NCBI RefSeq assembly: GCF_004343305.1
Contig: NZ_SMAF01000013.1
Coordinates: 1-64,000, forward strand
Direction of reading: 5' to 3'
DNA length: 64,000 bases
Source of the DNA: Pseudofulvimonas gallinarii
GTDB taxonomy: Bacteria; Pseudomonadota; Gammaproteobacteria; Xanthomonadales; UBA2363
Position numbers and translations under genes: made by a program. Positions 1-22,269 of the stretch are shown here, piece after piece; within the stretch, counting starts at the first letter, position 1, and each line of letters starts with the position of its first letter. The notes below the pieces were generated by a model, which saw nothing but the letters and a program-made list of their open reading frames with translations, made no database searches and had not been told where the DNA came from.

Positions 1-1
1 A

Positions 2-142
2 ACCGGGGTCGCGCGAAGCCCGCTGCGTAGTGGCGAGAAGCTGGCCGATCGGGTCCATGCGCAACTGTCCGACATCAAGCTCCGGCCCGACCTGGCGCGC
101 TCGTTCTTCGGGCATACAAGTGTCGCCTATATTTCTGACTGA
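2..142 (+). CDS. C-terminal fragment of an unidentified protein (cut by window start)
   Basis: An open frame enters from before the window and stops at TGA 140-142, giving 46 residues ending in S-F-F-G-H-T-S-V-A-Y-I-S-D. The G-H followed by a tyrosine is faintly like the end of a tyrosine recombinase, which would suit the edge of an island, but the H-to-Y spacing is too short to rely on. It converges tail to tail with hsdR, whose stop begins at the next base. I do not recognise the family. Confidence 0.3.
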   Translation, partial: TGVARSPLRSGEKLADRVHAQLSDIKLRPDLARSFFGHTSVAYISD

Positions 143-3100
143 TCAGTAAACCTTTCCACCCACGCCCTTGAACTTCTCGACAAAGGCGGCGATTTTCTGG
201 AACACGCTCTGCTTCTTGGTCAGGAATTGCGGGTTCAATGGGCTCATCTTGGGCAGAAGCGCGTTGAGCTCCGTGCCGTTTTCGCTGGCGTACTCACGCT
301 TGAGTGAGGTGGTGATGTATCGCCTGGCGGCCTCGGCGTTGAGGCTCTCACTGTCGATCAGCTCCTGGGCTTCGCGCTGCTGCTCCGCTTGCGCAAATGT
401 GAAGAAAGCCTCGATCACACTGGTCTTGTCGCCAAGCTGGTCCAGGTCGGTCTGATTGATAAAGTCCACCACCAGGCTTTCCTTGGCGCGGTTACCCAGG
501 CTTGCCCGGATCACACGCCGCACCTCATCCACCAGTTCAGACTTGCTCTTGGTCTTCTTGTTGTGCTCGAAGATCAGTTCCAGGATGTAGTCGAGGTTGA
601 TTTCCTGCGACTTCAAGAGATCCACCTCGAAGACCACGTCATCCCAGTCGATGGTCGATTTATCTTTCTCGTCCCCTGCCTTCTGGCGGCGTAGCCAGTC
701 ACGCACGTCGTTGTAGGTCGAGCGGTAGTCCTGAATTTTCCGATCTGGCGGGAGCTTGATCGCCTGCAGCGCGGTCAGGTCTTCATCGCTCAGGTAATGT
801 TTAGCCTTGAATGCTTCCACTGCGGCGGGGTCCGTCAGATCGACGCTCTGCAACGCCTTCAAGCTGGCAAATTCGTCATAGTTCTGCAGCACGTTCTCGA
901 CGCGCAGATACTCGCCGAACAGTTTGACGAAGGCCTTCTTGTCCGCCTCCTTCTCAATGGCGGCAGGGTCGGGGAAGCGCTCTTCCAGTTCCCGCACCAC
1001 ATCCATGAAGCCCCGGCGCGCCTCACCGGTGGCCGCATCGGTGAAGCCTTCCATATACTCCTTGTAGCTTTTCTCCAGCAACACGTTCCGGGTGTTCTTG
1101 TCACCAAACAGGGTGATGGCATCGATGGTCGCCTGTTCCAGATCGCGGAAGGTGACGATGTTGCCGAAGGTCTTGGTGGCGTCAAAAATGCGGTTGGTGC
1201 GCGAATAGGCCTGCATCAGCCCGTGGTAGCGCAGGTTCTTGTCGACAAAAAGCGTGTTGAGCGTGGGGGCATCAAAACCGGTAAGGAACATGCCGACCAC
1301 AATCAGCAGATCGACATCCTGCTCTTTGACGCGCTTGGCCAGGTCGCGGTAGTAGTTCTGGAAGCCATTGCTGTCCACGCTGAAGTTGGTCTTGAACAGC
1401 GCGTTGTAGTCGGCGATGGCCGCGCTCAGGAACTCCTTGGCGCTGCTGTTCATGGCCGACACATCAAAGCTCTCGTCCTGGATATCGCCAATCGCATCCT
1501 GCTCCTCGTTGGCAGCAAACGAGAAGATGGTGGCCACCTTCAACGGCTTGTCGCTGTTCTTCTGCAACTCCCGGAAGCACTCGTAATACAGCTTGGCCGC
1601 ATCCACGCTGCTGACGGCGAACATGGCGTTGAAGCCCTTGTTGCCCGGTTGCAGGCGGTGGGTCTTCTGCCGGAAGTTGTTCAGGATGTACTGGGTGATC
1701 TCGCGGATGCGATCCGGGTGCAGCAGGGCTTGCCGGTTCTCCGCCGCACTCAGCTTCTTCTCGTCCTGTTCGGTCTCGATGGCCTTGAATTGCGGGCGCA
1801 CATCGTTGTAGTCCACCTTGAACTTCAGCACCTTCTCGTCGCGGATCGCATCAGTGATCACGTACGCGTGCAGCTCACGGCCAAACACGCTGGCCGTGGT
1901 TTCGGCGCCCAGTGCGTTCTGCGGGAAAATGGGCGTGCCGGTGAAACCAAACTGGTAGAACCTCTTGAACTTTTTCTTCAGGTTCTTCTGCGCCTCGCCA
2001 AACTGGCTGCGGTGGCACTCATCGAAGATGAACACCACCTGCTTGCCGTAGATGGGCAAGTCGGCCTCGCTCTTCATCAGGTTGTTGAGCTTCTGGATGG
2101 TGGTGACGACGATCTTGTTGTCGTCCTTCTCCAGGTTGCGCTTCAGGCCCGCCGTGCTGTCCGAGCCGTTGACGCTGTCCGGTGAAAAACGCTGGTATTC
2201 CTTCATGGTCTGATAGTCCAGATCCTTGCGATCCACCACGAAGAACACCTTGTCGATGAAGTCCAGCTCAGTGGCCAGGCGCGCTGCCTTGAAGCTGGTC
2301 AAGGTCTTGCCGCTGCCGGTGGTGTGCCAGATGAAGCCACCGCTTTCCGTGTTGCTCCAGTTCCTGGCCTGATAGCTGCTCTTGATCTTCCACAGAATGC
2401 GTTCCGTGGCGGCGATCTGGTAAGGCCGCATCACCAGCAGCGTGTTGCTGACGTCGAACACCGAGTAATGCAGCAGCACATTGAGCAAGGTGTGCTTCTG
2501 GAAGAAGGTGGCCGTGAAGTCCTTCAGGTCCTTGATCAGCGTGTTGTCCGCCTTCGCCCAGTTCATGGTGAAGTCGAAACTGTTCTTGTTGCGCTGCGTG
2601 GTATTGGCAAAGTAACGGGTGTCGGTGCCGTTGGAGATCACGAACAGCTGCAGATACCTGAACAAGGAATGTTCGCTGTTGAAGCTCTCCTTGCTGTAGC
2701 GATGCACCTGGTTGAAGGCTTCCCGGATCGCCACGCCGCGCTTCTTCAGCTCCACCTGCACCAGCGGCAGGCCATTGACCAGAATCGTCACGTCATAGCG
2801 GTTGGCATGACTGCCCGTCTGCTCGAACTGCTTGATCACCTGCACCTTGTTGCGGGCGATGTTCTTCTTGTCCAGCAGGTAAATGTTCTGGATGCGCCCA
2901 TCGTCAAAGATAAAGTCGTGGATGTAGTCGTCGTGAACCTTGCGGGTCTTTTCAACGATGCCCTCGCTGGGCTTGTCCAGCCAGGTTTCCACAAAGCGCA
3001 TCCATTCGCCCTCGGTGAACTGAACGGCGTTGAGTGCCTGCAGCTGCACGCGCACGTTGGCCAGCAAATCGAGGGGCGACTTGATGAACGAAGCAAACTC

Positions 3101-14191: not shown

Positions 14192-15451
14192 ATGTCTGTC
14201 CTGGCCGCCTCCCTGTCCGACCGTGTGGACGCCCTCGCCCAGCACTTCGCGTCGGCCAGTCCCTTCCCGCATGTTGTCATTCCCGACTTTCTTGACGAGG
14301 CCTTCTGCCAGTCGCTGCTCGCGGATTTCCCCGACTTCGAGAAGCGGCATGCGCTCAACGAGATGGGCGAGGTGGGTGGCAAGGCGGTGCGCATGGACGT
14401 GCGCGACATTTCCGACAGCTATCGGCAACTGGATGCCCTCATCCAGCGCGAGGAATTTCTGTCGCTGGTGTCCCGGATCACCGGCATTCCCGACCTGCTC
14501 TATGACCCCGACTACCTTGGCGGCGGCACCCACGAAAACGTCGATGGTCAGGGCCTGGATGTGCATGTCGACTTCAACTACCACCCGCGCACGCGTTGGC
14601 ACCGTCGCCTGAACCTGATCATCTACCTCAATCCCGACTGGCAAGCCGAATGGGGCGGTCAGCTGGAGCTGCATGCCGACCCGTGGAGCGACCGCGCGGA
14701 AGGAAAAGTCCAGGTGCCGCCGCTGTTCAACCAGTGCGTGATCTTCGAGACCAGCGAGCACTCCTGGCACGGTTTTCCGACCATCCATCTGCCGGAAAAC
14801 ACGCCGAACCTGTCGCGCAAGTCATTCGCCATCTATCTGTATACGCGCGAGCGGCCGGCCACGCAGACCGCGCCACCGCACGCCACCGTTTACGTCCCGC
14901 CGCTGATGCCCGATGGCTGGCAGGCCGGACGGACGCTCGACGACGCAGACCTGCGCGAACTGCGCAACCGCTTCGCCCGCCTGCGCGGACAACTCCGTTA
15001 TCTCTACGATCGCGAGCTGCGCTTCGGCGCACAGCTGAGCGAGCTGGAAGCTGCCCTTGACGAAGCCCGCCGCGGCCAGCGCCTGGACATCCAAGGCTTC
15101 GTCAGCCAGCCCGACGGCTGCACCGGCCTGTGGCCCGACGGCTGGGCCGGCGCCGCGCTCGCCACACGACTGGTGCCCACGCGCCCTGCCCGTTCGCTCC
15201 GGTTGCAACTGTGGGCGCCGCCGCAACTGGCGGGCAACCAGACGCTGCGCTTCGAACTGGACAAGCAGTCGCACGACTACACCTTGTCGCCAGGCGACGT
15301 CACCACGATCAACCTGCCGGTTGATGGACGCAGCGGCCGCGACAGCGATCTGCGCATCCACGCGGAACGGGTGTGGCAGCCGGCCGCAGCCGGCGATTCG
15401 TCGGATCAGCGTGAGCTGGCTTACAGGGTCGTATCGGTGGTCATCGAATAA
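14192..15451 (+). CDS. 2OG-Fe(II) oxygenase with unique C-terminal domain
   Basis: A probable 2-oxoglutarate- and iron-dependent hydroxylase of 419 residues. The metal triad is visible: H-V-D near residues 126-128 (GLDVHVDFNYHP) and a distal His near 193 (EHSWHGFP), with a downstream Arg (LSRKSFAIYLY) to bind 2-oxoglutarate. The double-stranded beta-helix occupies about 110-220. After a short helical linker (about 250-300) a C-terminal beta-rich domain (about 305-419) of unknown role follows. The fold resembles prolyl-hydroxylase-type oxygenases that act on proteins or peptides. It lies 72 bp before the isoaspartyl dipeptidase on the same strand. The substrate is unknown. Confidence 0.85.
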   Translation: MSVLAASLSDRVDALAQHFASASPFPHVVIPDFLDEAFCQSLLADFPDFEKRHALNEMGEVGGKAVRMDVRDISDSYRQLDALIQREEFLSLVSRITGIPDLLYDPDYLGGGTHENVDGQGLDVHVDFNYHPRTRWHRRLNLIIYLNPDWQAEWGGQLELHADPWSDRAEGKVQVPPLFNQCVIFETSEHSWHGFPTIHLPENTPNLSRKSFAIYLYTRERPATQTAPPHATVYVPPLMPDGWQAGRTLDDADLRELRNRFARLRGQLRYLYDRELRFGAQLSELEAALDEARRGQRLDIQGFVSQPDGCTGLWPDGWAGAALATRLVPTRPARSLRLQLWAPPQLAGNQTLRFELDKQSHDYTLSPGDVTTINLPVDGRSGRDSDLRIHAERVWQPAAAGDSSDQRELAYRVVSVVIE

Positions 15452-15523
15452 GCCGCGGCATATCCTGAGCGTGCGGGTGCGCGGATGCTTGACGGCGCCG
15501 CGCGCGCTCGCCACGCTGCCGCG

Positions 15524-16699
15524 ATGAAACCGATCCTGATCCGCAACGCCGACGTTTTCGCCCCCGAGCCGCTGGGTCGCCAGCATCTGTTGCTGGCCGG
15601 TGGTCGCATCATCTGGATGGGCAGCACCGATCTGGAACTGCCACCGGTGCTGGACGTGGACACGCTGGACCTGGGCGGTCGCCGGCTGATTCCCGGCCTG
15701 ATCGACGGGCACGTCCATGTCACCGGCGGTGGCGGTGAGGCCGGCTTCGCCAGCCGCGTGCCGGCGCCGAAGCTGTCGCGCTACACCCGGGCCGGCGTGA
15801 CTACCGTGGTCGGCCTGCTGGGCACCGATGATGTTTCGCGTGGACCTCGCGAGCTGGTGGCAACCGTCAACGCCTTGCGCGAGGAAGGACTCAACGCCTT
15901 CGCCTACGCGGGCGGCTACCACCTGCCACCGGTCACGCTGACCGGCGCGGTGCGCAGCGATCTGGTGTTCATCGATTGCCTGCTCGGCGTCGGCGAACTG
16001 GCGATCAGCGATCACCGCTCCAGTCAGCCGACCCTGGACGAGCTGCTGCGCATCGCCTCGGAATGCCATGTCGCCGGGCTGATGACCGGCAAGGCCGGCA
16101 TCCTGCACCTGCACCTGGGCGATGGTCCACGCGGCCTGGAGCTGGTACGTCGCGCATTGGACGAAACCGAATTGCCGGCGCGGGTGTTCAATCCCACCCA
16201 CGTCAACCGGCGCAAGGCGCTGTTCGCCGAAGCCATCGACCTGGCCCGCCGTGGCTGTCATGTCGACATCACCGCGTTCCCGGTCGAGGACGGCGAAGAC
16301 GCGTGGTCGGCCGAGGATGCGCTGATGCGCTACCTGGACAGCGGCGCGCCACCGAACCGGGTCACGATCAGCTCCGATGCCGGCGGCTGCCTGCCCTGTT
16401 TCGACGCCGAAGGCCGGGTCACCGGCATGGGCGTCGGCGAGTCCGGCGCGCTGCTGGAAAGCCTGCGTGCCCTGCTGGCGCGCGGCGTGGCCCTCGCTGA
16501 CGTGCTGCCGGCCTATACCCGCAACGCTGCCGACCTGCTGCGCCTTGGCGGCAAGGGCCGGATCGAGGCTGGTGCGGACGCCGATCTGGTCGTGCTGGAT
16601 GAGGCCGGCCATGCCTGCGACGTGATCATCGGCGGGCTGTTGCACCTGCGTGACGGACAGGTGGTTCGTCGTGGTATGTTCGAGCACGATTCAGGGTGA
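15524..16699 (+). CDS. iadA: Isoaspartyl dipeptidase (IadA-like)
   Basis: Metal-dependent amidohydrolase that splits beta-aspartyl dipeptides. In cyanophycin users it completes degradation by cleaving beta-Asp-Arg into Asp and Arg. The 391 residues have the H-x-H motif (GLIDGHVHVTGGGGEAG, near 62-70), the later His and Asp metal ligands (NPTHVNRR, ISSDAGG) and the C-terminal amidohydrolase composite-sheet segment. I start at ATG 15524 (MKPILIRNADVF). An upstream start at 15485 would add 13 non-family residues. Directly upstream of cyanophycinase and synthetase, so the context supports the role. Confidence 0.9.
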   Translation: MKPILIRNADVFAPEPLGRQHLLLAGGRIIWMGSTDLELPPVLDVDTLDLGGRRLIPGLIDGHVHVTGGGGEAGFASRVPAPKLSRYTRAGVTTVVGLLGTDDVSRGPRELVATVNALREEGLNAFAYAGGYHLPPVTLTGAVRSDLVFIDCLLGVGELAISDHRSSQPTLDELLRIASECHVAGLMTGKAGILHLHLGDGPRGLELVRRALDETELPARVFNPTHVNRRKALFAEAIDLARRGCHVDITAFPVEDGEDAWSAEDALMRYLDSGAPPNRVTISSDAGGCLPCFDAEGRVTGMGVGESGALLESLRALLARGVALADVLPAYTRNAADLLRLGGKGRIEAGADADLVVLDEAGHACDVIIGGLLHLRDGQVVRRGMFEHDSG

Positions 16700-16762
16700 A
16701 CAAAGGACACCCGGAACCGGCCCCGCCGGTTCGACAATGACATGTAATGAATGGAGCAGTGG

Positions 16763-17602
16763 ATGCCGAGCAAGGTAGCTGAGGGGCAGCAGCGCGGATG
16801 GATCGTTCCCATCGGCGGTGCTGAAGACAAGGAAGCCAATCCGAAAGTCCTCAAACGATTCCTGGATGTGTGCGGCGGCAGCGATGCCGACATCGTGGTG
16901 ATTCCCACGGCCAGCCGACTGGTCGAAACCGGCACGCAGTACGACCGGTTGTTTCGCCAGCTGGGCGCGCGCGACGTGGAGATCCTGGACTTCGATACCC
17001 GTCGCGACTGCGAGGAGGAAAACCGCCTCAAGCGCATCGAGCGGGCGACCGGCGTGTTCTTCACGGGCGGCAACCAGCTGCGGCTGTCGACCACGATCGG
17101 CGGCACGCCGGTGGCCAAGCTGATCCGCGTGCGCAACGCCCAGGGCATGACCGTGGGCGGAACCAGCGCCGGCGCCGGCATTCTCAGCGAGCACATGATC
17201 GCCTTCGGCCAGGAAGGTTCGTCGCCAACAGCGAGCAGCGTGCGCCTGGCGCCAGGCCTCGGACTGACCAACCGTTTCATCATCGACCAGCATTTCCGCC
17301 AGCGCGACCGCCTCGGCCGCCTGGTCGCGGCGATGGCCTACAACCCGTTCGCGGTCGGCATCGGCCTGGACGAGGACACCGCCGCCTTCATCGCGCCGGA
17401 CAACACGCTGGAAGTGGAAGGCTCCGGCGCGGTCACGGTGGTCGATGCCGGTGGCCTTCAGTTCTCGTCGATGGCGCAGGTGGCGGAGAACGAACCGGTG
17501 TGCCTGCTCGGCCTGACCGTGCACATCCTGACCGCCGGCGCCACCTTCAACCTGCACACCCGAAAGGCTTCCGCCGGCACCTTGAGCCCACGAAAGAGCT
17601 GA
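16763..17602 (+). CDS. cphB: Cyanophycinase
   Basis: Serine-type exopeptidase of the S51 family that releases beta-Asp-Arg dipeptides from cyanophycin. The catalytic nucleophile motif G-G-T-S-A-G-A-G lies near residue 135 and the N-terminal G-W-I-V-P-I-G-G-A-E-D is typical. Length 279 fits the family. I prefer ATG 16763 because GGAG lies about 6 nt before it; the ATG at 16751 has no visible ribosome site. The lack of a signal peptide implies a cytoplasmic enzyme acting on the host's own polymer. cphA follows 23 bp later. Confidence 0.95.
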   Translation: MPSKVAEGQQRGWIVPIGGAEDKEANPKVLKRFLDVCGGSDADIVVIPTASRLVETGTQYDRLFRQLGARDVEILDFDTRRDCEEENRLKRIERATGVFFTGGNQLRLSTTIGGTPVAKLIRVRNAQGMTVGGTSAGAGILSEHMIAFGQEGSSPTASSVRLAPGLGLTNRFIIDQHFRQRDRLGRLVAAMAYNPFAVGIGLDEDTAAFIAPDNTLEVEGSGAVTVVDAGGLQFSSMAQVAENEPVCLLGLTVHILTAGATFNLHTRKASAGTLSPRKS

Positions 17603-17625: not shown

Positions 17626-20424
17626 ATGCGCATACTCAATCGCAACGTCTACGTCGGCCCTTCGCAGTATGCGCACTTCCCGGTGATCCGGCTGGAGCTG
17701 GATCTGGGTCCGCTGGAGGACTGGCCGACCGCCCGTCTCGGACCGGCGTTCATCGACGCACTGGTGGAACGCCTGCCCGGCCTCGCCGAACATGGCTGCT
17801 CCTATCGCGAGCCCGGCGGCTTCATCCGCCGCATGCGCGAGGATGAAGGCACCTGGCTGGGCCATGTCTTCGAACATGTCGCCATCGAGCTGCAGAACAT
17901 CGCCGGCGAGGATGTCACCTTCGGCCGCACGCGCAGCATCGACGACCGGCCCGGTGTCTATTCGGTGGTCTACGAATACGCACAGCGCGAGGAAGGCATT
18001 GCCGCAGGCGAGCTGGCGCTGCGCCTGCTCAGCTCGCTGCTGCCGTCCGGCCTTCGTCCCGCCGGCATCGTGCCGGACGACTGGGACTGGGAACACGAGC
18101 GCGACAGCTTCATCAAGTACGCGCAACGCCGCGCGCTGGGTCCATCGACGGCGTCCCTGGTGCGCGCCGCCCGCGAGCGCGACATACCCTGGCTGCGCCT
18201 CAACGAACAGTCATTGATACAGCTCGGCCACGGCAAGTACCAGCAGCGCATCCAGGCGACGATCACCGGGCGCACGCCGTACATCGCCGTCGAACTGGCC
18301 GGCGACAAGGAGGAGACCAACCGCATCCTCGCCAACCTCGGCCTGCCGGTGCCGCAGCAGATCCTGGTGACCAGTGCCGATGCCGCGGTGAAGGCGGCGC
18401 GCAAACTCGGTGGCCAGGTCGTCACCAAACCCTACAACGGCAACCACGGCCGCGGCATCACCATCGGCATCAGCAGCGACGAGGATGTGCGCGCCGGCTT
18501 CGAGGCCGCGCGCGAGCATTCCCGGTCGGTGATCGTGGAGACCTACCTGCCTGGCGACGATCATCGCCTGCTGGTGGTGAACGGCAAGCTGATCGCCGCC
18601 ACGCGGCGCACGCCGGGCCACGTGGTCGGTGATGGCAAGCGCACCGTCGCCGAGCTGGTCGAGATCGTCAACCAGGATCCGCGCCGCGGCGTTGGCCACG
18701 AGAAGGTGCTGACCAAGCTGCAGCTCGACCGCGAAGCGAACATGATGCTCGAGCGCATGGGCTACACCAGCGAGTCGGTGCCCAGGGACGGCGAGGTCGT
18801 CTACCTGCGCTCCACCGCGAACCTTTCGACCGGCGGCACCGCGACCGACGTCACCGACATCATCCATCCCGACAACCGCGACATGGCCGAACGCGCCGTG
18901 CGTGCGATCGGCCTGGACGTCGGCGGCGTCGACTTCCTGTCGCCCAACATCGCCGAAAGCTACCGTCGCGTCGGCGGTGGCATCTGCGAGGTCAACGCCG
19001 CGCCTGGCTTCCGCATGCACGTCGCACCCAGCGAAGGCACGCCGCGCGATGTCGCCAGCCCGGTGATCGACATGCTGTTTCCGTCGGGATCGCCTTCGCG
19101 CGTGCCGATCGCGGCGATCACCGGCACCAACGGCAAGACCACGACCACGCGCATGCTCGCGCACATCACCAAGATGGCCGGCTACACGCCGGGCATGACG
19201 ACGACCGATGGCGTCTACATCGACGGCCAGCGTACCGTCGAGGGCGACATGACCGGCCCGGTTTCGGCGCGCATGGTGCTTTCCGACCCCACGGTCGACA
19301 TCGCGGTGCTGGAAACGGCGCGCGGCGGCCTGGTCCGAGCCGGCATGGGCGTGACGCGCGTGAACGTCGGCGCCGTCATCAACGTGCAGTCCGACCACCT
19401 CGGCCTGAAGGGCGTGAACACGCTGGAACAGCTCGCCGAGATCAAGCGTGTCGTCGTCGAAGTGGCCGAGGACTGTGCTGTCCTCAACGCCGATGATCCC
19501 AACGTCCTGAAGATGTCCGGCTATACCGACGCGAAGACCATCTGCTACGTGACGATGAACCCGTCCAACGCGCTGGTGCGCGAGCACATCCGCGCCGGCG
19601 GCCGCGCCTGCGCGCTCGAGGCTGGCGTCAACGGCCAGATGATCACGCTGTACGACAAGGGCAGCCATATCCCGCTGCTGTGGACGCACCTGATCCCGGC
19701 CACGCTGGAAGGCCGCGCCCTCCACAACGTGCAGAACGCGATGTTCGCAGCCGCGATGGCGTATTCGCTTGACATCAAGCTGGACGCGATCCGCCTCGGC
19801 CTCCGCACCTTCGACACCACGTTCTTCCAGGCGCCGGGCCGCATGAACGTGTTCGACGAGCATCCGTTCAAGGTGCTGTTCGACTACGCGCACAACGCCC
19901 ACGCAGTCGGCGTGATCGCCGAGCTGGCACAGCGCCTGGATGTCGAAGGCCGCCGCATCGTGGTCGTCGCCGGTCCGGGCGACCGCCGCGACGAGGACAT
20001 CGAAGCCATCGGCCATGCCGTCGCCGGCAGCTTCGACCACTACATCGTGCGCCGCGACGACAACCTGCGCGGCCGTGACGGCGACGAGGTGCCGCTGCTG
20101 CTCGCCCGCGCCCTGCGCGACAAGGGCGTCGGTGATGACGCGATCTCGGTGATTCCCGACGAACAGCAGGCCATCGATGCCGCCCTGCAGATGGGCCAGC
20201 CGGGCGACCTGATCGTGATCTTCGCCGATGCACTGGCGCGTTCCTGGAAGCAGATCACCAAGTTCCGTCCGGAAGGCGCGCAAGCGTCCCGTGCACCGGC
20301 ACCGCCGCCGGCCAGCTTCGTCAGCGACGACGCCATGGAAGACCCCGTGCCGGCGCTCGACCTGGAAGGCATGATCCGCGACGAACGCGGCCTGCGTTAC
20401 GCGCCGCAGGAAGAAAGTGACTGA
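17626..20424 (+). CDS. cphA: Cyanophycin synthetase
   Basis: Makes the storage polymer multi-L-arginyl-poly-L-aspartate from Asp and Arg with ATP. The 932 residues have the N-terminal CphA domain (about 1-160), an ATP-grasp domain that adds Asp (about 200-470; glycine-rich NGNHGRGITIGI near 272) and a Mur-ligase-like domain that adds Arg (P-loop ITGTNGKTTTTRM near 500, then ETARGGLVRAGMG and FDYAHNAHAVG). The tail after about 880 is longer than in typical CphA (about 870-880 residues) and is proline/alanine-rich, then acidic. Ribosome site AAGGA before ATG 17626. Same strand as cphB and the second ligase, so an operon is likely. Confidence 0.96.
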   Translation: MRILNRNVYVGPSQYAHFPVIRLELDLGPLEDWPTARLGPAFIDALVERLPGLAEHGCSYREPGGFIRRMREDEGTWLGHVFEHVAIELQNIAGEDVTFGRTRSIDDRPGVYSVVYEYAQREEGIAAGELALRLLSSLLPSGLRPAGIVPDDWDWEHERDSFIKYAQRRALGPSTASLVRAARERDIPWLRLNEQSLIQLGHGKYQQRIQATITGRTPYIAVELAGDKEETNRILANLGLPVPQQILVTSADAAVKAARKLGGQVVTKPYNGNHGRGITIGISSDEDVRAGFEAAREHSRSVIVETYLPGDDHRLLVVNGKLIAATRRTPGHVVGDGKRTVAELVEIVNQDPRRGVGHEKVLTKLQLDREANMMLERMGYTSESVPRDGEVVYLRSTANLSTGGTATDVTDIIHPDNRDMAERAVRAIGLDVGGVDFLSPNIAESYRRVGGGICEVNAAPGFRMHVAPSEGTPRDVASPVIDMLFPSGSPSRVPIAAITGTNGKTTTTRMLAHITKMAGYTPGMTTTDGVYIDGQRTVEGDMTGPVSARMVLSDPTVDIAVLETARGGLVRAGMGVTRVNVGAVINVQSDHLGLKGVNTLEQLAEIKRVVVEVAEDCAVLNADDPNVLKMSGYTDAKTICYVTMNPSNALVREHIRAGGRACALEAGVNGQMITLYDKGSHIPLLWTHLIPATLEGRALHNVQNAMFAAAMAYSLDIKLDAIRLGLRTFDTTFFQAPGRMNVFDEHPFKVLFDYAHNAHAVGVIAELAQRLDVEGRRIVVVAGPGDRRDEDIEAIGHAVAGSFDHYIVRRDDNLRGRDGDEVPLLLARALRDKGVGDDAISVIPDEQQAIDAALQMGQPGDLIVIFADALARSWKQITKFRPEGAQASRAPAPPPASFVSDDAMEDPVPALDLEGMIRDERGLRYAPQEESD

Positions 20425-20487
20425 AGCCGCGGGCCGGCCAGCCTGGCCGGCCCGACCCGTGAAAAGCAGACCGGATTGACCCGCACG

Positions 20488-22269
20488 ATGACCGATGCCG
20501 CGCCATCGCCGTTCGACGACTCGCGCCGACTGACCGGCCCCAACCTGTATTTCGCCAGCACCGGTGCGGCGCTGGAAACGCTGGTCGGGGCGCCGGTGCC
20601 GGAAACGCTGCTGGCCGGCTGGCAGGCGCGAATCGGCCAAGCTCGGCAGGCGCTGGGCTGGCCGGACGGCGATCTCGTGATCCGGCGCCACCACTCCGGC
20701 GCATCACTGGCCTTCAGCGCGCCCTTCGACCAGCTGTACGCGGCAGCGGACGTCAACGAATGGGCGTGGCTGGCCAGCCTGCATGAACACGGCAGTCTTG
20801 ACCCGGGCGCAGTGCCGTTCGCGCCCGGCCATCCGGCCCTCTGGAACCCCGAACAGGCGATGCAGACATTGCAGGCGGCTGCACGCGCCGAACAGCGGCC
20901 TCTGCTGCACGAACTGGAAAACGCGGCCCTGCAGACGCAGCGGGCCTTCCTGGTTGATGACGACGAGGTGTCCATCGGCCTCGGCACGGGCAGCCGTACC
21001 TGGGCGCTCGACGATGCACCGCGTCCAGCCGACATCGACTGGTCGGCGCTGCACGATATTCCCACCGCGCTGGTGACCGGTTCCAACGGCAAGACCACGA
21101 CCGTTCGCCTGCTCTCCTCGATCTGGCGCAACAACGGCCGCCACACCGTGCACAGCTGCACGGATGGCCTGTACCTGGATGGCGAGCTGCTCGAAGGCGG
21201 TGACTATTCCGGCCCGGGCGGCGCCCGCGCCGTCCTGCGCAATGCCGCCGCCGAAGCCGCCATCCTGGAAACCGCGCGCGGCGGACTGCTGCGCCGTGGC
21301 CTGGCGCTGCGACGCGCCGACGTCGCCGTGGTGACCAATGTGCAGCCGGACCATTTTGGCGAGTACGGCATCCACAACCTCGACGACCTGACGATGGTGA
21401 AGCTGACCGTCGCCCGCGCGCTCGATGAGCGGCGCACGCTGGTCGTGAATGCCGACGACCCGCAGCTGCGTCGCCACGCGCCAGGACTGCCCTGCCCGCT
21501 TGCCTGGTTCGCGCTCGATTTCGACGAACCGCTGCTGGCGGTGCGCCGCGCGAGCGGTGCGGCGACCTGCGGCGTCCGCGACGGCCACCTGCACGCCAGC
21601 ATCAACGGTTGTGAACACGACTTCGGCGAGGTCGCCGCCATGCCGGTCACCTTCGCCGGCACGGCGCGACACAACATCTCGAACATCGCGGCGGCGACGC
21701 TGGCCGCGTTGCACATGGGCGTGGACGCCAGCGTCATCGCCGCGACACTGGCGCGCTTCGGCAGCGATCGCCGCGACAATCCCGGCCGCCTGCAACGCTG
21801 GCAGCTGGGCGACGTGGTGGTGCTGCTCGACTACGCACACAACCCGGACGGCCTTGGACATCTGCTCGCGCTGGCCGACCGCGAACGCCGGGACGGGGCC
21901 GGCATGCGCCTGCTGCTCGGCCAGGCCGGCAACCGGGAAGACGAGGATATCGCCCGTCTAGGCAAAGTCGCCGCGCGCTTCTCGCCGGCCCTGGTCGTGC
22001 TCAAGGACATCCAGGGTTACGAGCGTGGTCGCGCCGAGGGCGAAGTCGCAGCCATCCTGACCACAGCGCTGACATCGCACGGGGTGGCCGCGGACCGCAT
22101 CGAGGTCGAGCTCGACGAGGCCACCGCGGTGCGCCGGCTGCTCGCGAGCGCGCGCCAAGGGGACGTCGTGGTCCTGCCGGTGCACAGCACGGCCGGCCGC
22201 CAGCATGTCGATGGCCTGCTGGCGCGGATGGAGTCTTTGGGCTGGAGCGCTGGCCAGCCGCTTCCCTGA
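20488..22269 (+). CDS. Mur ligase family protein, cyanophycin-synthetase-like but lacking ATP-grasp
   Basis: The 593 residues hold a Mur-ligase core very like the C-terminal half of the neighbouring CphA: P-loop TGSNGKTTTVRLL near 197, then ETARGGLLRRGLALRRADVAVVTNVQPDH and LLDYAHNPDGLGHLL. The first roughly 180 residues do not resemble the CphA N-domain or an ATP-grasp fold; no glycine-rich ATP-grasp loop is visible. It can therefore add at most one kind of amino acid. This recalls CphA2-type enzymes that polymerise ready-made beta-Asp-Arg dipeptides, but those keep a degenerate ATP-grasp domain. Start at ATG 20488; TTG 20476 is an alternative. Follows cphA by 63 bp. Confidence 0.85.
   Translation: MTDAAPSPFDDSRRLTGPNLYFASTGAALETLVGAPVPETLLAGWQARIGQARQALGWPDGDLVIRRHHSGASLAFSAPFDQLYAAADVNEWAWLASLHEHGSLDPGAVPFAPGHPALWNPEQAMQTLQAAARAEQRPLLHELENAALQTQRAFLVDDDEVSIGLGTGSRTWALDDAPRPADIDWSALHDIPTALVTGSNGKTTTVRLLSSIWRNNGRHTVHSCTDGLYLDGELLEGGDYSGPGGARAVLRNAAAEAAILETARGGLLRRGLALRRADVAVVTNVQPDHFGEYGIHNLDDLTMVKLTVARALDERRTLVVNADDPQLRRHAPGLPCPLAWFALDFDEPLLAVRRASGAATCGVRDGHLHASINGCEHDFGEVAAMPVTFAGTARHNISNIAAATLAALHMGVDASVIAATLARFGSDRRDNPGRLQRWQLGDVVVLLDYAHNPDGLGHLLALADRERRDGAGMRLLLGQAGNREDEDIARLGKVAARFSPALVVLKDIQGYERGRAEGEVAAILTTALTSHGVAADRIEVELDEATAVRRLLASARQGDVVVLPVHSTAGRQHVDGLLARMESLGWSAGQPLP

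Follow-up and report, generated by a model that had tools for sequence, protein, structure and literature searches.

A putative single-site ligase related to cyanophycin synthetase is encoded beside cphA in Pseudofulvimonas gallinarii

Introduction

Cyanophycin is a bacterial nitrogen-storage polymer, and the literature found, in the sections consulted, treats it as the product of one enzyme. The cyanophycin synthetase CphA1 (TIGR02068; PDB 7lg5, 7wae, 7lgm and 7lgn) is composed of N, G and M domains. According to the consulted parts of the respective reports, the HxxEH motif is the primer-cutting site in the N domains of CphA1 (PMC9262961), whereas CphA2 (PDB 8fxi and 8fxh), which lacks P-loopM and Mlid, joins dipeptides directly in a reaction that takes place only in the G domain (PMC9427784). 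Lysine, ornithine and citrulline, as well as glutamate in the backbone, are described as alternatives in recombinant cyanophycin (PMC8050183). The portion of a survey of the clustering of CphA1, cyanophycinase and dipeptidase genes that was consulted (PMC10206079) contains no mention of the protein described below. The excerpts consulted on Lysobacter capsici describe cphA–cphB as a two-gene cluster (PMC4742617), and those on activated-sludge bacteria report clusters with "two copies of cphA" (PMC10687191).

Here we analyse a gene, called LIG, that follows cphA in Pseudofulvimonas gallinarii. No description of it was found in the open PMC literature; older papers, which reportedly defined groups of cphA genes, could mention it.

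Results

Locus organization and domain content

The window, as we call the whole analysed stretch of 64,000 nucleotides, contains the following features, all on the forward strand:

15485–16699, +, iadA, isoaspartyl dipeptidase (TIGR01975)
16751–17602, +, cyanophycinase (TIGR02069)
17626–20424, +, cphA, complete N-G-M cyanophycin synthetase with HxxEH present (TIGR02068, 1123 bits)
20430–20454, +, GC-rich stem-loop between cphA and LIG, 11-bp stem without a T run (z −1.95, weak significance)
20488–22269, +, LIG, N-M type CphA-like ligase of 593 residues, open reading frame from ATG
20506–20826, +, predicted degenerate CphA N domain of LIG, residues ~7–113, without the HxxEH endopeptidase helix (structure match and motif count)
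20833–20997, +, predicted G-domain (ATP-grasp) remnant of LIG, corresponding to the first segment of that domain, residues 116–170 (profile comparison)
21058–21777, +, M core of LIG, residues ~191–430, with the P-loop (198–205), Mg-binding E261 and catalytic D288/H289
21778–22248, +, M lid of LIG, residues ~431–587, with R434, H451, the loop KDIQGYERGR, and H566 at the position of a conserved acid

An alternative TTG start 12 nt upstream would extend LIG to 597 residues. The NCBI label of the protein is "Mur ligase family protein" and nothing more specific. The 2OG-Fe(II) oxygenase gene (14192–15451) and the downstream PLD-type gene were considered as clues to the substrate and rejected as parts of the system, because neither was found at any other locus examined.

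The first-pass annotation had described the frame after cphA as a CphA-like Mur ligase, and the motifs on which this was based are present: the P-loop TGSNGKTTT at residues 197–205, ETARGGLLRRG at 261–271 and DYAHNPDG at 448–455. The Pfam families Mur_ligase_M (residues 196–407, 2.2e-18) and Mur_ligase_C (433–563, 7.3e-12) match, and the M domain is complete, with P-loop, DH motif and lid. The TIGR02068 profile of cyanophycin synthetase reaches 328.9 bits, below its cut-off of 850, and aligns only through its positions 477–849. A separate search with residues 1–187 returned zero Pfam families at E ≤ 1, and none of the Pfam ATP-grasp models matched anywhere in LIG.

LIG shares with CphA1 the N-domain fold and the full M core and lid, with about 32–39% identity over M. 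It differs from CphA1 in having no G domain and no HxxEH helix, in its altered lid pocket, and in its length of 593 residues versus about 900. CphA2 is likewise a one-site relative of CphA1, and its N-domain fold matches that of LIG with a Z of about 9. The first-pass annotation had attributed a degenerate ATP-grasp domain to CphA2 and had suggested that LIG might be a minimal ligase polymerising dipeptides. Both points have to be revised. According to the consulted part of PMC9427784, CphA2 lost the P-loop and lid of the M domain instead and retained G, the domain that makes the backbone bonds. LIG is the mirror image, since it has both P-loopM and Mlid and no functional G domain. Because its truncation is the reverse of that in CphA2, LIG is very improbable as a CphA2-like polymerase of beta-Asp-Arg dipeptides, even though it belongs to the same family and the nearby iadA and cyanophycinase use or produce dipeptides.

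A make-up like that of CphA2 is found beside other CphAs, in a different clade from LIG. Tandem CphA paralogues of ~770 residues, which we take to be CphA', occur in other Gammaproteobacteria and resemble LIG in being encoded by a second CphA-family gene adjoining cphA. They differ from it in that they keep N and G and stop before the lid. Their M P-loop and DH motif are mostly lost (14 rows), and their sequence architecture resembles that of CphA2.

Fold and origin of the N-terminal region

An AlphaFold2 model of LIG, built from 67 sequences (the window's and those of the related loci), has a pLDDT of 95.8 and a pTM of 0.94; the N-terminus modelled separately reached a pLDDT of 94.8. CphA1 structures rank first in a Foldseek search with the whole model, and VIA-align superimposes 556 of the 593 residues on SuCphA1 7lg5 (chain 1..875; Z 35.8, rmsd 4.4) while skipping the G domain. 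When residues 7–187 were compared with the PDB, the top ten rows were all CphA1 or CphA2 (Z 8.1–10.8, 160–169 residues aligned), the best match to CphA1 reaching a Z of up to 10.8 over 164 residues, and the first row that was not a cyanophycin synthetase had a Z of 7.5. These fold comparisons, of the whole model and of the N-terminus, speak only for fold families among the matches listed. The CphA1 chain range paired with the N-terminus is 1..481, which spans the N domain together with both ends of G. Since just 160–169 residues are aligned over this range, most of G is skipped.

Sequence profiles point in the same direction. Compared with profiles of partner CphAs, that is, those of the one CphA clade with which LIG co-occurs, the N-terminal region (LIG-N) gave probabilities of 0.1% for N alone, 1% for G alone and 5.7% for N and G together; in the last comparison, residues 111–170 paired with the end of the N domain and the start of the G domain. 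With diverse templates, including the N-M protein from Legionella discussed below, the probability rose to 60% (E 8.5e-5). The top 25 matches of a LIG-N HMM among 411 entries were all real CphA-family proteins, with 0 of 300 shuffled sequences among them, and the best was a G-deleted protein from Deinococcus deserti (E 1.6e-6). We regard the sequence link between the N-terminus of LIG and CphA as weak but real. We found the HxxEH motif in 84 of 85 partner CphAs and in 0 of 86 LIGs. Judged from model and profiles, the N-terminal 187 residues are a CphA N domain minus the HxxEH helix, followed by a remnant of G of ~55 residues. The absence of an ATP-grasp domain noticed in the first-pass annotation thus holds for both Pfam matches and fold, with this remnant of the domain start as the only trace. 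The intact M domain, trimmed N domain and missing G domain together characterize LIG as a CphA without the endopeptidase helix and the ATP-grasp core, that is, as a predicted N-M ligase from which the backbone-extending site is gone.

LIG could alternatively be an unrelated Mur ligase of the MurE or MurT type that adjoins cphA by accident. It shares the M fold and chemistry with MurE and gives weak matches to the murE and MurT profiles (93.6 of 257.3 and 22.3 of 800 bits, respectively), both below the family cut-offs. However, the UDP-MurNAc-binding N domain of MurE is absent and the match to MurE is much weaker; CphA is the best match in sequence as well as in fold, and the N-terminal domain rises above background for CphA and CphA2 only. 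LIG clusters with CphA and with no other Mur family, and an accidental neighbour of this kind is hardly credible.

"Mur ligase family" proteins encoded on plasmids of Legionella adelaidensis and Deinococcus deserti resemble LIG in keeping N and M and in having the G core deleted. They differ from LIG in their intact PF18921 N domain, and HxxEH was seen in the Legionella protein. These losses of the G core look like separate deletions. No cphA is listed beside either protein in the annotated stretches. The Legionella N-M ligase (L149:5001–6869, 622 residues) is encoded in one run of genes with a cyanophycinase and an isoaspartyl peptidase, and a full-length relative from another gammaproteobacterium (887-residue frame) is 56–60% identical to both of its parts. 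The protein from D. deserti plasmid 3 (L148:4872–7046, 724 residues) comprises N and M and lacks CphA residues ~246–446. In a plasmid of Deinococcus sp. KNUC1210 (L151:6684–9183), a CphA-like gene located behind cphA, isoaspartyl peptidase and cyanophycinase is split into a 693-residue frame (N, degenerate G and M core) and a small lid frame that overlap by 17 nt.

Active site and lid pocket

Residues of SuCphA1 and TeCphA1 that are important for ATP and Mg binding, lid function and catalysis in the M site are described in the consulted parts of PMC9262961 and PMC9427784. The LIG residues that align with SuCphA1 D585/H586 and TeCphA1 K499, T500, T522, E558, R731 and H748, by a residue mapping made in this analysis, are at least 98% conserved where tabulated (66 of the 67 M domains entered the table), and are invariant or at least 90% conserved in the 67-row alignment. 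The conservation of these residues argues for LIG being an active ligase.

LIG might instead be a catalytically idle partner whose N' and M domains dock on the G cores of CphA, forming a mixed oligomer that tunes chain length or primer use. The M core of TeCphA1 touches its own N domain and three G cores (consulted part of PMC9427784), and an M domain without G could therefore bind CphA; the evolution of LIG, about twice as fast as that of CphA, would also suit such a role. We consider it unlikely, because the P-loop, the Mg ligand, D288/H289, R434 and H451 are conserved among LIGs that are 33–58% identical, which is not expected of a dead subunit.

The lid pocket sets LIG apart from its partners. 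One lid column is acidic in nearly all CphA1 proteins, with Asp in 86 of 86 partner CphAs and 21 of 23 other CphAs and Glu in 4 of 4 CphA1 structures from the PDB. The same column in 79 LIGs holds His in 67, Phe in five and a gap in seven (the alignment retained 79 of 86 LIGs, 86 of 86 partner CphAs and 23 of 28 other CphAs). In addition, where the lid of CphA has the second Asp of a DD pair, LIG has Ile, Met or Leu, and it carries an insertion of two residues ahead of RGR. In MurE, the incoming amino acid is bound by two motifs, DNPR and GKGHE, and by analogy the lid region of LIG should recognise which side chain is being added. This analogy is approximate, because in the MAFFT alignment it is a Lys of MurE that occupies the lid acid column, while the Glu of GKGHE lies three columns further on.

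Since the lid acid of CphA is His, Phe or unalignable in LIG, the residue that LIG adds may be other than arginine. The suggestion of a different amino acid in the first-pass annotation gains some support from these pocket residues; on the other side, LIG has retained a lid motif found in Arg-adding CphA1, RGR..GE, and this favours Arg. In a narrower version of the side-chain-ligase role proposed below, LIG and CphA would add one and the same amino acid (Arg or Lys), and LIG would serve as a spare M module by which Arg loading is accelerated or completed. The RGR..GE motif and aligned catalytic residues common to LIG and Arg-adding CphA1, as well as the strong pairing with CphA, are in favour of a spare module. 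The loss of the lid acid, the changed DD pair and the loop insertion speak against it, as does the M site of the partner CphA, which is already intact. We regard this version as a tentative possibility.

Distribution and linkage to cphA

A genome collection contains 195 relatives of LIG, and the frame is therefore no chance open reading frame. In 75 of the best 80 of these 195, cphA is located directly upstream, and the remaining five LIGs are no more than 450 nt away from a contig end. The gap between cphA and LIG has a median of 6 nt and is at most 15 nt in 48 of 82 pairs and at most 100 nt in 71 of 82.

In a set of 299 genomes from the order, CphA exceeds the cut-off in 92 and LIG-N is found in 89. 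The co-occurrence anticipated in the first-pass annotation is strong: 85 genomes have both, seven CphA only, four LIG only and 203 neither (Fisher p 1e-60, uncorrected for kinship). Four of the CphA-only genomes have truncated CphA matches (G025, G155, G185 and G186), two carry the tandem paralogue type (G145 and G232), and G132 is unexplained. Three of the LIG-only genomes have CphA matches below the cut-off (G116, G167 and G203). G011, a 99%-complete genome, has LIG and no CphA match. Both proteins are present yet encoded on separate contigs in G021, G027 and G147; the genes flanking the unlinked LIG (RsgA, PAP2, EptA/B-like, subtilase, ABC and GGDEF) give no clue to the amino acid.

LIG-N was found in five of 398 genomes of the phylum, each time beside a CphA; other CphA-bearing genomes in this set are without LIG. 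Of 369 genomes of the class, 18 match the Legionella protein, and eight of them have a second frame of 561–614 residues near CphA; three of the seven such genomes besides the window's were checked, and all three frames are LIG. Matches occur in 27 plasmid records, four of which cover at least 80% of LIG. Three inspected plasmids, of Roseateles XES5, Ruegeria THAF33 and Shinella zoogloeoides, carry the row cyanophycinase–cphA–LIG, with LIG labelled "Mur ligase family protein". The occurrence of LIG and cphA together across genomes suggests a two-enzyme route for making or modifying cyanophycin.

Eight of the best 80 LIGs of the 195 (L046, L050, L053, L054, L058, L059, L086 and L087) carry an in-frame insert of ~160–240 residues at residue ~100–113, which is a DUF559 nuclease-like domain in the four that were scanned. 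Inverted repeats of 44–67 nt flank the insert in L053, L058 and L059, and L086 has shorter repeats near one side only. The insert has the look of a mobile cassette that does not interrupt the reading frame of its host. DUF559 has no match in the genome to which the window belongs.

Phylogeny

In a tree of M cores that includes LIG from the window along with 16 of the 20 LIGs selected, LIG forms one clade (100/99) apart from the clade of partner CphAs (100/99). The rooting is weak, because only one of three Mur outgroups tried was retained, on a very long branch. Its separate clade indicates, as judged from these sequences, that LIG did not arise by recent duplication of the neighbouring cphA. 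The distances among LIGs and among CphAs are correlated (mirror-tree, 70 pairs, r 0.85, with 0 of 999 permutations as high), which shared descent alone could explain. The mean p-distance is 0.48 for LIG versus 0.22 for CphA. The loss of the G domain and this fast evolution might be taken as signs of a decaying tandem duplicate of cphA. However, LIG is a single old clade that is not nested in that of the adjacent CphA, and its frame is intact and its sequence conserved in distant proteobacteria as well as on plasmids; decay is thus a most implausible explanation. Divergent CphA-like proteins of 660–961 residues with altered M motifs (L093–L101), from two families of the order, form a separate group in the tree.

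Discussion

Based on sequence conservation and the structure model, LIG is probably a single-site side-chain ligase that originated within the cyanophycin synthetase family and works together with CphA on cyanophycin. CphA would make the poly-Asp/beta-Asp-Arg chain, which LIG would hold between its N' and M domains. LIG would then attach an amino acid to the beta-carboxyl of Asp residues, probably C-terminal ones, by ATP-dependent activation of the carboxylate in the M site and subsequent attack of the amino group. It would either supplement the M site of CphA or, as the altered lid pocket suggests, add a residue other than Arg, which would result in a mixed polymer. LIG lacks both the G site, which adds Asp to the backbone, and the primer-cutting site of the N domain, and on its own it should not polymerise. 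Two observations are against the side-chain-ligase role: the need for a second M site is unexplained when that of the partner CphA is complete, and the genome with LIG and no CphA match counts against it.

We speculate, as a possibility that we hold only tentatively, that the amino acid which LIG attaches to the Asp side chains of cyanophycin is neither Arg nor Lys. The product would be a mixed polymer made by two enzymes, in which LIG sets the composition, solubility or chain end, and proteobacteria would have built two-gene CphA systems twice, once with a G-only and once with an M-only paralogue.

The two-copy clusters of activated-sludge bacteria, as far as the consulted part of PMC10687191 describes them, may include the cphA–LIG pair or the G-only paralogue, and different types of protein may be lumped together when "two cphA copies" are counted. 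LIG seems to be reduced to the side-chain-loading half of CphA and would be a natural single-site ligase for studying and engineering side-chain chemistry. The conservation of such an M-only partner in Lysobacterales, Burkholderiales-type MAGs and alphaproteobacterial plasmids points to a two-enzyme variant of cyanophycin synthesis, possibly with a different side chain.
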